64,000 nucleotides of DNA from Desertimonas flava (lineage in GTDB: Bacteria > Actinomycetota > Acidimicrobiia > Acidimicrobiales > Ilumatobacteraceae). Under the pieces are notes generated by a model. That model worked only from the letters and a program-made list of their open reading frames with translations. It was not told the origin of the DNA and did no database searches. The stretch lies in contig NZ_QKYK01000002.1 of the NCBI RefSeq assembly GCF_003426815.1, positions 62,001-126,000 on the forward strand, read 5' to 3'. A program made the position numbers and the translations under genes. Numbering within the stretch: position 1 is the stretch's first letter; every line of letters starts with the position of its first letter. Positions 43,876 to 48,891 of the stretch are shown here, piece after piece.

Positions 43876-45480
43876 ATGTATCCGGGGGAATACGCACGCA
43901 CACACGCGGACCGACCAGCGCTCGTGATGGCCGGTTCGGGACGCTCGCTCACGTTCGCCGAGTTCGACGCCAACGCCAACCGCGTGGCCCATCTCTATCG
44001 CGACGCCGGCCTCCAACGAGGCCAGCACGTGGCGATGCTGATGGAGAACAACCTGCGCTACTTCGAGACGATGTCGGCCGCCGAACGTTCGGGCCTCTAC
44101 TACACGGCGATCAACTCCTACCTCACACCCGAGGAGGTCGCCTACATCGTCGACAACTGCGACGCCGAGGTGTTCATCACGACCGCGGCCAAGCTCGACG
44201 TGGCCAGGGCGGCGGTCGAGCAGCTGCAGGCAGAGGGTTCGACGAAGCTCGAGCGGCTGCTGTGCGTCGACCTCGAGGAGGCCTCGCCGGTGGGCGGCGC
44301 CGGCCAGACCGGCCTCGCCTTCGAACCGTACGACGCCGCGCTCGCCGCCTATCCGTCCACACCGATCGCCGACGAGCAACTCGGAGCGGCGATGCTGTAC
44401 TCGTCGGGCACGACCGGCCGGCCGAAGGGGATCCTGCGGGACCTGCCCGACGCCCATCCCGGCGATGCCCTGCCTGTGATGGACTTCGTCGCCCGCTTCC
44501 TGTTCGGCATGCGCGAAGGGATGGTGTATCTGTCGCCGGCGCCGATCTACCACTCGGCGCCCCAGGCGTCGGTGGCGTCGGCGCTGCGCTTGGGCGCGAC
44601 GTCCGTGATCATGGAGCGCTTCGACCCCGAGCAGTACCTGCGGCTCGTCGAGGAGCACCGCGTCACCCACAGCCAGGTGGTGCCGACGATGTTCAGCCGC
44701 ATGCTCAAACTGCTCGACGAGGTGCGGGCCAAGTACGACCACTCGTCGCTCGAGGTGATCATCCACGCCGCCGCGCCCTGCCCGGTGCAGGTGAAGCAGG
44801 CGATGATCGACTGGTGGGGCCCGATCATCCAGGAGTACTACGGCGCCACCGAGGCCAACGGCTTCACGTTCTGCACGTCGCCCGAGTGGCTCGAGCACCC
44901 CGGCACCGTCGGCAAGCCCATCCTCGGCACGCTGCTCATCCTCGACGACGACGGCAACGAGGTCCCCCAGGGCGAGATCGGCACGGTCTGGTTCGACGGC
45001 GCCACCAACTTCACCTACTACCACGACGAGGCCAAGACGGCCGAGAGCCGTGACGAGACCGGCACCCGCTCGACCGTGGGGGACGTCGGCTACGTGGACG
45101 AGGACGGCTACCTGTTCCTCACCGACCGCAAGACGTACATGATCATCTCCGGCGGCGTGAACATCTACCCGCAGGAGTCCGAGAACCTGCTCGTGACGCA
45201 TCCCAAGGTGTTCGACGCGGCGGTGATCGGCGTGCCCAACGAGGACCTCGGCGAGGAGGTCAAGGCCGTCGTGCAGCTGATGCCCGGCATCGAGCCGAGC
45301 GACGAGGTGGCGGCCGAGCTCACCGCCTTCTGCGCCGAGCATCTCGCCCGGTTCAAGGTGCCGCGGTCGATCGACTTCGAGGCCGAGCTACCCCGCCTGC
45401 CCACCGGCAAGCTGTACAAGCGCCTTCTACGCGACCGGTACTGGGCCGACGCCACCGGTCGCTCCCGAATCGTGCAGTGA
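43876..45480 (+). CDS. Acyl-CoA synthetase (AMP-forming, FadD-like)
   Basis: A 534-residue member of the ANL superfamily. P-loop-like motif MLYSSGTTGRPKGI (about 174), QEYYGATEANGFTF (A5), GDVGYVDEDGYLFLTDRKTYMI (A7-A8) and the catalytic Lys in PRLPTGKLYKRLLRD at the C-terminus. It activates a carboxylic acid to an acyl-CoA through an acyl-AMP; chain length is not predictable. TAGCGT lies 7 bases before ATG 43876 and there is no ribosome site, so the transcript is probably leaderless. A repeat element follows 3 bases after its stop. Confidence 0.93.
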   Translation: MYPGEYARTHADRPALVMAGSGRSLTFAEFDANANRVAHLYRDAGLQRGQHVAMLMENNLRYFETMSAAERSGLYYTAINSYLTPEEVAYIVDNCDAEVFITTAAKLDVARAAVEQLQAEGSTKLERLLCVDLEEASPVGGAGQTGLAFEPYDAALAAYPSTPIADEQLGAAMLYSSGTTGRPKGILRDLPDAHPGDALPVMDFVARFLFGMREGMVYLSPAPIYHSAPQASVASALRLGATSVIMERFDPEQYLRLVEEHRVTHSQVVPTMFSRMLKLLDEVRAKYDHSSLEVIIHAAAPCPVQVKQAMIDWWGPIIQEYYGATEANGFTFCTSPEWLEHPGTVGKPILGTLLILDDDGNEVPQGEIGTVWFDGATNFTYYHDEAKTAESRDETGTRSTVGDVGYVDEDGYLFLTDRKTYMIISGGVNIYPQESENLLVTHPKVFDAAVIGVPNEDLGEEVKAVVQLMPGIEPSDEVAAELTAFCAEHLARFKVPRSIDFEAELPRLPTGKLYKRLLRDRYWADATGRSRIVQ

Positions 45481-45482
45481 GC

Positions 45483-45563
45483 TTCTGGGCGCGAATCGTG
45501 CCATTTCGGCTTCCGGGCGCGGATCGTGACGCTCACCGTCACGATCCGCGCCCGGAACCTCGG
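45483..45563 (+). repeat. Two-part palindromic element, copy 1
   Basis: A first part CTGGGCGCGAATCGTGCCAT (from about 45485) is followed by a perfect hairpin: 21-base arms at 45511-45531 and 45537-45557 (inner arms GATCGTGACG and CGTCACGATC) around CTCAC, then GAACCTC. A second copy in opposite orientation lies at 48932-49016 with the same order of parts. Confidence 0.9.
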
Positions 45564-45586
45564 CCGGCCGGCGGGTGCGGCGCAGG

Positions 45587-45592
45587 TAGACT
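45587..45592 (+). promoter_or_regulatory. -10 box of the metG leader transcript
   Basis: TAGACT lies exactly 7 bases before the GTG of the leader frame, the same geometry seen for many leaderless genes in this window. No clear -35 box is visible. Confidence 0.55.
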
Positions 45593-45599
45593 GAGAGTC

Positions 45600-45665
45600 G
45601 TGTTCGAGTTGACGACGTCCGTCATGATGCGGCCCCTGCCGGGGCCGGTTCTGCTCGCGCACTGA
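45600..45665 (+). CDS. Leader peptide with tandem Met codons upstream of metG
   Basis: A 21-codon open frame, VFELTTSVMMRPLPGPVLLA followed by His and a TGA stop, begins at GTG 45600 right after a leaderless promoter box and ends 86 bases before metG. Its two adjacent ATG codons (45624-45629) are followed at once by the hairpin CGGCCCC-TGCC-GGGGCCG (45630-45647). The arrangement matches ribosome-mediated attenuators, in which scarce charged tRNA stalls the ribosome at codons for the controlled amino acid. The gene downstream is methionyl-tRNA synthetase. Not proven to be translated. Confidence 0.6.
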   Translation: MFELTTSVMMRPLPGPVLLAH

Positions 45666-45743
45666 CGAACCGCCGACCCTGGAGGATGCTCCGGGGTCGC
45701 AGGTGATGCCGGGGGTGCTCCGGGGTCCAACGACCCACAGGAG
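45630..45743 (+). promoter_or_regulatory. Candidate methionine attenuator upstream of metG
   Basis: Four pairing elements follow the Met codons: CGGCCCC/GGGGCCG (45630-45647); GACCCTGGAG (45675-45684) pairing with CTCCGGGGTC (45689-45698); an exact second copy of CTCCGGGGTC (45718-45727) that could compete for the same partner; and GGGTC-CAAC-GACCC (45723-45736), which ends next to the metG ribosome site CAGGAG (45738-45743). Mutually exclusive folds are therefore possible. The function is inferred. Confidence 0.5.
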
Positions 45744-45751
45744 TCACCGCC

Positions 45752-47260
45752 ATGTCCACCACCTTCCTCTCCGTCGCCATCCCCTACGTCAACGCCGACC
45801 CGCACCTCGGCTACGCCTACGAGCTGGTGCAGGCCGACATCGCCGCGCGCGCCCGCCGCCGCCTCGGCGACAGCGTGCGCTTCGTCGGCGGTACCGACGA
45901 CTACTCCCTGAAGAACGTCCTCGCCGCCGAGGCCGCCGGCGTGCCGACCGCGGCCTTCGTCGACACCCACGCCGAGCGGTTCGCCGCCCTCGCCGGACCA
46001 CTCGGACTGAGCTTCGACGACTTCGTCCGCACCAGTGCCGATCCCCGTCATCGCCCGGCGGTCGAGCGGTTGTGGCGGGCGTGCGCGGCCAACGGCGACC
46101 TCTACCGGAAGACGTACGCGGGGGACTACTGCGTGGGCTGCGAGCAGTTCTGGCGCCTCGAGGAGTTGCTCGTCGATGGCGACGGCGTCGCCTGCTGTCC
46201 GGAGCACCTGACACCGGTCGAACGGGTCGAGGAGGACAACTGGTTCTTCCGGCTCTCAGCGTTTCAGGGCTATCTCGAGGAGCTGCTCGAGTCGGGCCGG
46301 CTCGACATCCACCCCCACGTGTTCCGTGACGAGGTGCTCTCGTTCGTCCGTGGCGGCCTCGACGACATCAGCGTGTCGCGTTCCGTCCGCCGGGCCCGCG
46401 GCTGGGGCGTGCCGGTGCCCGACGATCCCGAGCAGGTCGTCTATGTGTGGTTCGACGCGCTCACGTACTACCTCTCGAGCCTCGGCTTCGGCGATCCCGA
46501 GAGCGTCGACTTCAGCCGCTGGTGGCGCAAGGCCGACCACCGCGTGCATGTCATCGGCAAGGGGATCTTGCGCTTTCACGCGGTGTACTGGCCGGCGTTC
46601 CTGGCCTCCGCCGGTCAGCCGGCGCCGACGCGGATCGAGGTGCACCCGTACCTCACCGTCGACGGGGCGAAGCTGTCGAAGTCGGCGGGCGGGGCGTCGC
46701 GATCGGCGGCCGGTCCGGTCGAGGTGGCCGACACGTACGGCACCGACGCCTTGCGGTGGTGGTTCGCCAGCGCCGTCTCACCGACGGTCGACACCGACTT
46801 CTCGATCGAGCGGCTCGTGGCGGCGGCCAACACCGATCTCGCCAACGGCGCCGGCAATGTCGTCAACCGCATCGCCACGCTGGCGGCGACGTGCCCCCAG
46901 GCTGTCGAGGCCGCGGCGACGGCGTGGCCGATCGCCGCGGCCGTCGGGCTCGAGGCCGATGTGCTCTCGGCGCTCGCCGACTTCGACCATCGTGGCGGCT
47001 GCCGTTTGATCGTGGACGCCGTCGCCGCGCTCAATCGCGATCTCGAGGCAACTACCCCCTGGCGCCTGGCCAAGGAGCCCGGCGCGGAGGCCGCCGCCGA
47101 GCTGGAACGCGCGCTCGCCCGGCAGATCGCGTCGGCCCGCCTGATCGCCGCCGCCCTGGGTCCGAATGTCCCCGCCCTGTCCGCCCGCCTCACCGACCGG
47201 TTGGCTGCGCCCGCCGATCCTGATGTCGCAAGGGAGCCGGCCTTCGCCCGACTCGCGTGA
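45752..47260 (+). CDS. metG: Methionine--tRNA ligase
   Basis: A 502-residue class I synthetase. IPYVNADPHLGYAYE holds the HIGH-type motif (HLGY) near residue 20, CVGCEQFWR with CCPEH is the zinc knuckle region (about 130-150), and AKLSKSAGG is the KMSKS-type loop (about 307). The anticodon-binding helical domain follows from about 350; there is no C-terminal dimerisation domain. It charges tRNA-Met in the cytosol. ATG 45752 has CAGGAG 8 bases upstream, in contrast to the leaderless neighbours. A leader frame with tandem Met codons precedes it. The form is divergent enough that it could be a second, inducible MetRS. Confidence 0.9.
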   Translation: MSTTFLSVAIPYVNADPHLGYAYELVQADIAARARRRLGDSVRFVGGTDDYSLKNVLAAEAAGVPTAAFVDTHAERFAALAGPLGLSFDDFVRTSADPRHRPAVERLWRACAANGDLYRKTYAGDYCVGCEQFWRLEELLVDGDGVACCPEHLTPVERVEEDNWFFRLSAFQGYLEELLESGRLDIHPHVFRDEVLSFVRGGLDDISVSRSVRRARGWGVPVPDDPEQVVYVWFDALTYYLSSLGFGDPESVDFSRWWRKADHRVHVIGKGILRFHAVYWPAFLASAGQPAPTRIEVHPYLTVDGAKLSKSAGGASRSAAGPVEVADTYGTDALRWWFASAVSPTVDTDFSIERLVAAANTDLANGAGNVVNRIATLAATCPQAVEAAATAWPIAAAVGLEADVLSALADFDHRGGCRLIVDAVAALNRDLEATTPWRLAKEPGAEAAAELERALARQIASARLIAAALGPNVPALSARLTDRLAAPADPDVAREPAFARLA

Positions 47261-47263
47261 GCC

Positions 47264-47296
47264 CCTGGCGGGATGCGCCAGGCACATCCCGTCAGG
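47264..47296. repeat. GTGCC-N-GGCAC-type palindrome
   Basis: CCTGGCGGGATG, the core CGCCAGGCA and CATCCCGTCAGG, with one wobble pair in the outer arms; a further GTCCCGTCAGG follows directly. It lies between convergent metG and the ThDP-enzyme gene. Confidence 0.85.
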
Positions 47297-47307
47297 TCCC
47301 GTCAGGT

Positions 47308-48891
47308 TCAGGCGAGGGGTACGTCGATGAGCGTCGGGCCGGGGGTGGCGTAGGAGCGCTCGAGGAGATCGGCGAGGTGGGCGGCGTCGACCGCTCGTTC
47401 GGCAGGGACGCCGAACCCGGTGGCGAGGGCGACGGCGTCGATCGCCGGGTTGTCGAGCGACAGCAGCGGCCCTGACCGGTCGCCGGCCCCGGTCGCCCCG
47501 ACGCGGCGCATCTCGTAGTTGAGGATCGCGTACGCCCGGTTGCTGAGCATCACGACGGTCACATCGAGTCCCTCGCGGGCCATCGTCCACAGTGCCTGGA
47601 TCGTGTACATCGCGCTGCCGTCGGCCTGCAGGGCGACGACGCGGCGATCGGGACAGGCGACGGCGGCGCCGACCGCCATCGGGAGGCCGTCGCCGATGGC
47701 GCCACCGGTGAGTCGCAGCCAGTCGTGAGGCGCGGCGTGCGCCGTGGCGTCGGCGAACACGGCGCTCGCCGACACCGACTCGTCGCAGATGATGGCGTTC
47801 TCGGGCAGCGTGGCGGCGACGGCGGCGGCCGTGGTCGCCACGCTCGAGGCGCCGGTCGGACGGGCCGGTCGCAGCTCCAACCGCGCCAGCGGCGCGGGTG
47901 CGTCGCCGGCCACCAGGTCGGCGAGCGCCGAGAGGGCGGCCACGCCGTCGTCCCCCGGACGGCTCAGGGCGACGATGTCGGCATCGGGCGGGGCCAGCTT
48001 GCTCGGACGGCCCGGATAGGCGAAGAAGGACACCGGCTCGACGGCCCCCGCCAGCACCAGCGTGTCGATGCCGTCGAGCTGGGCGGTCGCCTGCTCGGCG
48101 AAGTAGCCGAGCCGTTCGGGATCGACGCGACCGGCACCGCGAGCGATGCGCGCTGGAAACGTCTCGACGATCAGCTTGGCCCCCGTCGCCGCGGCGACGC
48201 GGCCGGCCGCCTCGGTGCCTGCCGCGGTCAGCGTGTCGCCGCCGATCAGCAGGGCCACGCCACCGGTCCGGTTCGAGCGCTCGCCCCGCAACGCAGCCGC
48301 CACGGCGTCGATGGTGGCGTCGGGCACCGGGAACGCCGGTGCGCCGGGCCGCGCTGCAGCCACGCGGCCGCCCTCGGTCCAGGCGGCGTCGGCGCGCAGG
48401 ATCACGGTGGCGATCTCGGCGGGACGACCCGTCGCCGCGGTCACGGCCTCGGCCACTGCAGGACCGACGTCGTCGGCGCGGCGCGGCGTCCGTACCCATG
48501 TCGACACGGTCGAAGCGAAGGCGTCGATGTTCGACTCCAGTGGCGCGTCGAGGTGCTTGTGCGACGTGGCGTGGTCGCCGACGAGGTTGACGATGCCGGT
48601 GCGCGCCTTGCTCGCGTTGTGCAGGTTGGCGAGGCCGTTGGCCATGCCCGGACCGAGATGCAGGAGGGTGGCCGCCGGCCGGCCCGCCATGCGCCCGTAG
48701 CCGTCGGCGGCTCCCGTGACCACGCCTTCGAACAGGCCGAGCACGCCGCGCATCTCGGGCACGGCGTCGAGGGCGGCGACGGCGTGCATCTCCGACGTCC
48801 CCGGGTTGGCGAAGCACACGTCCACACCACTCGCCACCAACGTCCGCATCGCTGCCTCAGCACCGTTCATCCCAGCGGTTCTAGTCGACAC
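47308..48891 (-). CDS. ThDP-dependent enzyme, acetolactate synthase large subunit-like
   Basis: A 527-residue enzyme with the three ThDP-family domains: N-terminal pyrimidine-binding (1-170; VDVCFANPGTSEMHAVAALD), central (about 185-320) and C-terminal pyrophosphate-binding domain with LQADGSAMYTIQALWTMARE and VVMLSNRAYAILNYE. It resembles stand-alone acetolactate synthase or benzoylformate decarboxylase-like proteins; no small regulatory subunit is adjacent, so a role in branched-chain synthesis is doubtful. GTG 48891 has GGGAG close upstream; ATG 48870 (MNGAEAAM) is an alternative. Upstream lies a palindromic element. Confidence 0.85.
   Translation of the reverse strand: MSTRTAGMNGAEAAMRTLVASGVDVCFANPGTSEMHAVAALDAVPEMRGVLGLFEGVVTGAADGYGRMAGRPAATLLHLGPGMANGLANLHNASKARTGIVNLVGDHATSHKHLDAPLESNIDAFASTVSTWVRTPRRADDVGPAVAEAVTAATGRPAEIATVILRADAAWTEGGRVAAARPGAPAFPVPDATIDAVAAALRGERSNRTGGVALLIGGDTLTAAGTEAAGRVAAATGAKLIVETFPARIARGAGRVDPERLGYFAEQATAQLDGIDTLVLAGAVEPVSFFAYPGRPSKLAPPDADIVALSRPGDDGVAALSALADLVAGDAPAPLARLELRPARPTGASSVATTAAAVAATLPENAIICDESVSASAVFADATAHAAPHDWLRLTGGAIGDGLPMAVGAAVACPDRRVVALQADGSAMYTIQALWTMAREGLDVTVVMLSNRAYAILNYEMRRVGATGAGDRSGPLLSLDNPAIDAVALATGFGVPAERAVDAAHLADLLERSYATPGPTLIDVPLA

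Follow-up and report, generated by a model that had tools for sequence, protein, structure and literature searches.

For the auxiliary tryptophanyl-tRNA synthetase gene trpRS1 of Streptomyces coelicolor, ribosome-mediated transcriptional attenuation is reportedly the mode of control (so the title of the 2010 study of Vecchione and Sello). Polycysteine leaderless attenuators are, by the title of a work of Canestrari from 2020, said to act on operonic gene expression in mycobacteria. The former system is the nearest precedent to the locus described here, a leader before a methionyl-tRNA synthetase (MetRS) gene of Desertimonas flava, situated in the window, i.e., the whole analysed stretch of 64,000 nucleotides: in trpRS1, and very probably also here, the gene of an auxiliary synthetase, present beside another one, is subject to attenuation. 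It differs in that methionine takes the place of tryptophan, and in that the amino acid sensed here also initiates translation. The mycobacterial leaders are, going by the title, leaderless, as the window leader probably is, and likewise short reading frames that encode the sensed amino acid, but they sense cysteine and involve no MetRS.

In Streptomyces lividans TK24, attenuators have been described before leuS, trpS, alaS, and thrS, with leader peptides that contain the cognate codons; leuL2, trpL2, and thrL are leaderless, and trpL2 and thrL lack a U-rich stretch (PMC8079986). The window leader resembles these in the cognate codons before a synthetase gene, leuL2, trpL2, and thrL in being probably leaderless, and trpL2 and thrL in a hairpin devoid of a T tract, whereas no metG is named among the eight of that set in the part of the source considered here, which also does not describe the genes as those of auxiliary synthetases (PMC8079986). 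The same species possesses a putative metL before metNIQ, a leaderless, predicted methionine attenuator with several Met codons (PMC8079986). In metL, however, a Met importer is controlled, the Met codons are non-adjacent, and, according to the same part of that source, there is no typical Rho-independent terminator (PMC8079986). Concerning the methionine operons of Actinobacteria, the pertinent section of PMC1262725 reports no conserved RNA structure upstream, and among the papers listed in a search of the open-access literature there was no Met leader before a MetRS.

The sequence-only reading had proposed a methionine attenuator, and the elements on which it built are present in the window (Table 1): the TAGACT box 7 nt upstream of a frame of 21 codons with an adjacent ATG pair, and the GC hairpin of 7 bp directly 3' of ATGATG. 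Further on, the decamer CTCCGGGGTC indeed occurs twice (45689-45698 and 45718-45727), with its partner GACCCTGGAG at 45675-45684, and the last hairpin, a GGGTC/GACCC stem lengthened by CTCC/GGAG, adjoins the ribosome site of the synthetase gene, reaching into AGGAG. We infer that the RNA begins with the GTG at 45600 or next to it, which would make the leader leaderless. The leader RNA (45600-45751) folds with -85 kcal/mol (z -4.5), and none of 200 dinucleotide shuffles was equally stable. The pattern of Met-Met plus hairpin 1, ATGATGNNNCCCN{3,7}GGGG, has a single match in the 6.2-Mb genome, namely the window leader, and its backward control has none in the same genome. In the untranslated fold, hairpin 1 is surrounded by an enclosing stem, and similar stems seem, by eye, to be present in several relatives.

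Table 1. Features of the leader region and of the gene downstream (positions within the window).
Feature	Position	Strand	Basis
Candidate -10 promoter box, TAGACT	45587..45592	+	Sequence; TAnnnT common in leaders of relatives
Leader ORF, 21 codons + TGA, GTG start: MFELTTSVMMRPLPGPVLLAH (GTG read as M)	45600..45665	+	
Enclosing stem of the untranslated fold, 45600-45603/45659-45662 and 45605-45609/45653-45657	45600..45662	+	Predicted by folding
Proposed regulatory Met-Met codons, ATG ATG	45624..45629	+	Doublet in frame in relatives
Hairpin 1 (arms 1 and 2), CGGCCCC TGCC GGGGCCG, 7 bp	45630..45647	+	Sequence, folding
Terminator-like hairpin (arms 3 and 4), CGACCCTGGAG GATG CTCCGGGGTCG, -21.5 kcal/mol, without T tract 3'	45674..45699	+	
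Last hairpin, containing the second CTCCGGGGTC copy; its CTCC is paired to the GGAG within the ribosome site; same in all modelled states	45718..45743	+	
Ribosome-binding site of the auxiliary metG, AGGAG	45739..45743	+	Sequence
Auxiliary methionyl-tRNA synthetase, 502 aa	45752..47260	+	Homology, profile score, tree

No T-rich tail follows the terminator-like hairpin of the window, and no terminator-like site was found in 45400-45800. A perfect inverted repeat of 21 bp with a loop of 5 nt (45511-45557) is situated between the upstream gene for an AMP-binding enzyme and the leader promoter; it may mark the end of the upstream transcript, although a T run after it could not be found. Readings as a T-box or riboswitch were rejected: T-box matches were absent both from window positions 44000-48000 at E up to 1 and from 12 loci at the gathering threshold, the SAM riboswitch models had no match in the same part of the window or in the 12 loci, and Rfam yielded only miRNA-like matches below gathering (at the upstream inverted repeat) as well as tRNA genes in locus L122.

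The downstream gene had been taken for the metG of the organism; the same genome, however, carries another MetRS, and the gene of the window is a divergent auxiliary copy, about 40% identical to it (39-41%). Its closest solved structures by sequence are MetRSs, e.g., 4dlp and 2x1l. With the metG model TIGR00398 it scores 323 bits, under the model cut-off of 336, and the other MetRS scores 461 (over a stretch of 466 aa). The last residue of the HIGH motif (45800-45814) is Y in the window and F or Y in many auxiliary MetRSs; the changed second His was dismissed as a sign of inactivity, as F at this place also occurs in MetRS genes of candidate phyla. A MetRS paralog accompanying a conventional MetRS is common in actinobacteria and has spread to proteobacteria (PMC2922099); in the section of that source considered, genes for a cupin and a lysine N6-monooxygenase always accompany it, and its Zn ribbons are duplicated. 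Membership in that paralog family was rejected, neither of the two obligatory neighbours being present among the ten flanking proteins of six loci (Pfam). The same flanking proteins gave no conserved operon or biosynthetic cluster, the sole shared neighbour being a hydrolase of HAD type, which two of the Actinopolymorpha copies have nearby, and the flanking genes scanned held no hint of inhibitor resistance. A link to tRNA-Met genes was likewise discarded (among 31 loci scanned, tRNAs were present only in L122, for Gly, Cys, and Val), as was a phage origin (best phage match 34% identical among the best 8 of 24 records).

In the survey of the family, 196 of 200 genomes had a MetRS match, and a clear orthologue of the auxiliary MetRS was found in one other genome among the matches listed (G133, 61% identity). 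The surveys of the order (397 genomes) and of the phylum (396 genomes) each added three further orthologues, of 54-66% and 43-51% identity, respectively. The gene is commoner in the orders of three actinomycete carriers: with a threshold of E up to 1e-180 it was detected in 19 of 196, 7 of 200, and 28 of 150 genomes, the carriers already known being included. At least one further MetRS (E up to 1e-40) exists in 15 of the 18 other carrier genomes searched again; at this threshold G946, G948, and G956 have a single MetRS each, the last being the carrier of L043, which falls outside the clade described below. In G949, G951, G953, G954, and G955 the further MetRS gives only a partial match of low score and is thus of a more distant type. 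The genome of L112 contains a third, partial MetRS match (G320:C71:27189-27968, 362 bits, profile positions 167-433).

In the tree, a single clade takes in 67 of 68 candidates (support 0.976) and leaves out L043; the first to branch off within it are L174 and L200, both devoid of a recognisable leader. When the plasmid copies treated below are added, all 76 stand together (0.925), and an inner clade of 74 excludes L174 and L200 (0.98). These supports are local values of FastTree, and the sample is one of convenience.

Conservation in relatives, which the sequence-only reading had named as a check, is borne out: Met codons, frame, and box spacing, as well as the adjacent and the competing hairpins, are kept across this monophyletic clade. 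At a first look at 420 nt upstream, ATGATG leaders were found at 12 of 16 auxiliary-type loci (window included) and at none of six other MetRS loci. A strict scan (TAnnnT 5-8 nt before the start, a short closed ORF, and ATG-ATG or ATG-x-ATG) detected leaders in 49 of 68 auxiliary-type upstream regions vs. none of the 49 taken as controls from other MetRS genes (27-41% identical, start positions rechecked). Left out were 17 duplicate fetches as well as L049 and L051, which lie at a contig edge with no upstream sequence; L043 is counted in the 68 and was later dropped by the tree. Within the clade, 63 of 67 members (63 of 68 before this exclusion) possess a leader, in which the Met codons stand beside a GC hairpin that is followed by a terminator-like hairpin. 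Fourteen of these leaders were assigned by eye under relaxed criteria, seven having MM or MxM but no promoter box of the strict kind, and the other seven a single Met at the same place. By eye, no recognisable leader was seen in L040, L174, L178, and L200 of the clade, nor in L043 outside it. The Myxococcota leaders L041 and L042 are weak, with no promoter box found, a poor hairpin 1 in L041, and just 207 nt of upstream sequence in L042. Leaders share descent, so that all these counts are non-independent trials.

The 63 leaders comprise 9 to 27 codons and 61 distinct nucleotide sequences, and their peptides differ widely outside Met-Met. A TAnnnT box is situated 6-8 nt before the start in 56 of them; 49 of the 56 had, however, been selected with a spacing of 5-8 nt as one of the criteria. 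At least two non-start Met codons are present in 56 leaders and one in the remaining 7, Met making up 132 of 946 non-start codons. Among doubled codons, ATG is found at 49 loci and the next, ACG, at 6, and dinucleotide shuffles gave doubled ATG at a mean of 0.02 loci (maximum 1 in 100 repeats). In any context, ATGATG or ATGnnnATG occurs in 56 of 68 auxiliary vs. 5 of 49 control regions. Where ATGATG lies 9-89 nt after an ATG or GTG led by TAnnnT, it is in frame at 51 of 51 offsets (from 46 of 67 loci; such a pair is absent from the remaining 21), in a count that set no open-frame requirement, for which chance would give a third, and in which related loci are non-independent. No other observation speaks as strongly for translation of the leader frame.

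The locus is thus very probably a ribosome-mediated transcription attenuator, which senses charged elongator tRNA-Met and controls the auxiliary MetRS. Of the attenuator as conceived in the sequence-only reading, the conserved Met codons, frame, and hairpins stand, the regulated gene is corrected from metG to the auxiliary MetRS, and the decamer is abandoned as the switch. RNA polymerase would begin at or beside the leader start codon, so that a ribosome could load on the 5' end and trail the polymerase. With plentiful Met-tRNA, the ribosome would pass Met-Met, reach the stop codon, and hold arm 2 off arm 3, such that arms 3 and 4 would pair and transcription would end. With scarce Met-tRNA, it would wait at Met-Met and cover arm 1; the freed arm 2 (GGGGCC) would capture arm 3 while arm 4 is still to be transcribed, and the polymerase would read through into the gene of the auxiliary MetRS, whose product would restore charging. 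Without any translation, 1:2 and 3:4 would form and the gene would be off; in an account given in PMC1183508, the termination structures I:II and III:IV form without leader initiation. MetRS charges the initiator tRNA, too (as stated in PMC8165550), so that a deep shortage of Met-tRNA should block entry into the leader and leave the gene off. The response would therefore be confined to a partial shortage of Met-tRNA, a distinctive prediction of the proposed attenuator.

Concerning the decamer, its second copy sits in the hairpin of the ribosome site, for which no change between states is predicted, and it was therefore rejected as the core of the switch; a similar repeat is seen by eye in L003. 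In the folding models, the switch is better explained by arm 2 of hairpin 1 together with the 5' arm of the terminator-like hairpin. Three states were modelled (untranslated, stalled at the Met cluster, and at the stop codon), the ribosome being taken to cover the RNA up to 12 nt beyond the beginning of the codon it occupies; the automatic choice of hairpins was wrong for some leaders, e.g., for L122, where a hairpin with a T tract was overlooked. In most leaders, the onset of hairpin 1 coincides with the Met codons or closely follows them, its 5' arm beginning earlier in 9 of 63. The second hairpin has a median of -16.9 kcal/mol, 58 of 63 being at -10 or lower; the median distance from its end to the gene is 44 nt (at least 25 nt in 49 of 63), and at least four T in the subsequent 9 nt are found in only 25 of the 63 leaders.

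The mean predicted probability that arm 3 pairs upstream before arm 4 is present amounts to 0.23 in the untranslated state, 0.69 in the stalled state, and 0.25 with the ribosome at the stop codon. The stalled value exceeds the stop value by more than 0.2 in 53 of 63 leaders; among the ten without this excess, there are four in which the stop value is higher by that much, and the modelled capture of the window leader when stalled is just 0.46. In the stalled state, the own arm 3 (0.69) compares with 0.50 for shuffled arms and 0.60 for arms 3 of other leaders, being higher than the shuffled in 58 and than the exchanged in 49 of the 63 leaders. As a shuffled arm 3 still reaches 0.50, much of the gap between stalled and stop states reflects that more RNA is available. 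Own 2:3 duplexes are predicted to be stronger than exchanged ones (means -12.5 vs. -11.8 kcal/mol), a difference reached by 31 of 5000 permutations. At equilibrium, mean 3:4 pairing is 0.77 stalled, 0.79 untranslated, and 0.82 at the stop codon; 3:4 thus dominates in all states, and the switch would need kinetic capture. The 2:3 antiterminator and the 3:4 terminator, mutually exclusive and dependent on ribosome position, are features of the folding models only.

A later test concerned plasmid-borne members. The plasmid search matched 261 records, and from the best 15 of these, the nine with more than 43% identity were analysed (one from Streptomyces, one from Embleya, and seven from Rhizobiaceae, among which two CCGE strains share a protein accession), H13 and H15 of the plasmid listing being left out. 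All nine possess MM or MMM leaders, and the folding model predicts capture in all eight leaders modelled (0.77-0.99 stalled vs. 0.00-0.54 at the stop codon). Several rhizobial hairpins, unlike those of L208 and L210, carry a terminal T run and have the look of textbook terminators. The promoter-box test was passed by the leaders from Streptomyces and Embleya, and a promoter box before the Met leader was absent in the five Rhizobiaceae examined. The 330 nt upstream of four plasmid controls (below 40% identity) contained no Met doublet. In these records (L203-L211, from Streptomyces, Embleya, Rhizobium, Sinorhizobium, and Agrobacterium), the auxiliary MetRS is plasmid-borne together with its Met-Met leader in both Rhizobiaceae and Streptomycetaceae, and the copy L206 is located on a plasmid typed as conjugative.

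The pairing of the window's ribosome site in the last hairpin, as predicted by folding, and the lack of a T-tract terminator would also agree with translational attenuation, in which a stalled ribosome refolds the RNA and frees the metG ribosome site hidden there. Yet the predicted accessibility of that site hardly differs between the untranslated, stalled, and stop states, with 0.20 throughout in the window and means of 0.28, 0.30, and 0.30 in those 52 of 63 leaders for which the automatic choice yielded a purine-rich site (folding only), and masking of the Shine-Dalgarno sequence was rejected as the switch on this ground. Together with the distance between the second hairpin and the gene, at least 25 nt in 49 of 63 leaders, and with the T-rich tails after this hairpin in some relatives, this renders translational attenuation unlikely. 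In the window and its five nearest relatives (L033, L032, L003, L114, and L112), folding predicts that most of the metG ribosome site is paired whatever the state, and in L033 all of it.

The missing T tract of the window hairpin could also point to mere coupling, with stalled or absent ribosomes exposing or hiding RNA for Rho-dependent termination and the hairpins being secondary. Rho, however, needs neither a hairpin at the Met codons nor competing arms, both of which recur in the clade and in Rhizobiaceae, and such an explanation is very improbable. Short ORFs are common upstream of genes, and ATGATG might accordingly represent alternative translation starts or part of an ordinary small protein, without any function in regulation. 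Against this stand its invariable frame with the upstream start (51 of 51), the excess of doubled ATG over the next codon (49 vs. 6 loci), the wide divergence of the peptides outside Met-Met, and the hairpin at the Met codons, so that we give the absence of a regulatory role hardly any credence.

Concerning the significance of a transcription attenuator sensing charged tRNA-Met, a comparison with TrpRS1, which is stated to confer resistance to indolmycin (PMC9437257), is instructive, although no known inhibitor is tied to the auxiliary MetRS. We tentatively consider it possible that the auxiliary MetRSs constitute a so far unrecognised, horizontally spread family of inducible backup enzymes (Actinomycetota, Myxococcota, and plasmids of Rhizobiaceae), each with its own Met-codon attenuator, which might serve in defence against natural MetRS inhibitors or toxic Met analogues, and which might show a bell-shaped response, to partial and not to complete loss of charging, that attenuators for other amino acids lack. 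If the attenuator is as proposed, it would be a Met-specific, ribosome-mediated one acting on a MetRS, in which the sensed amino acid also starts the leader. The auxiliary MetRS family would then be widely distributed, and its regulation would point to a natural pressure on the charging of tRNA-Met. By analogy with TrpRS and indolmycin, the carriers of the gene and their neighbours may be places in which to seek natural MetRS inhibitors, and the leader itself could act as a reporter of Met-tRNA shortage.
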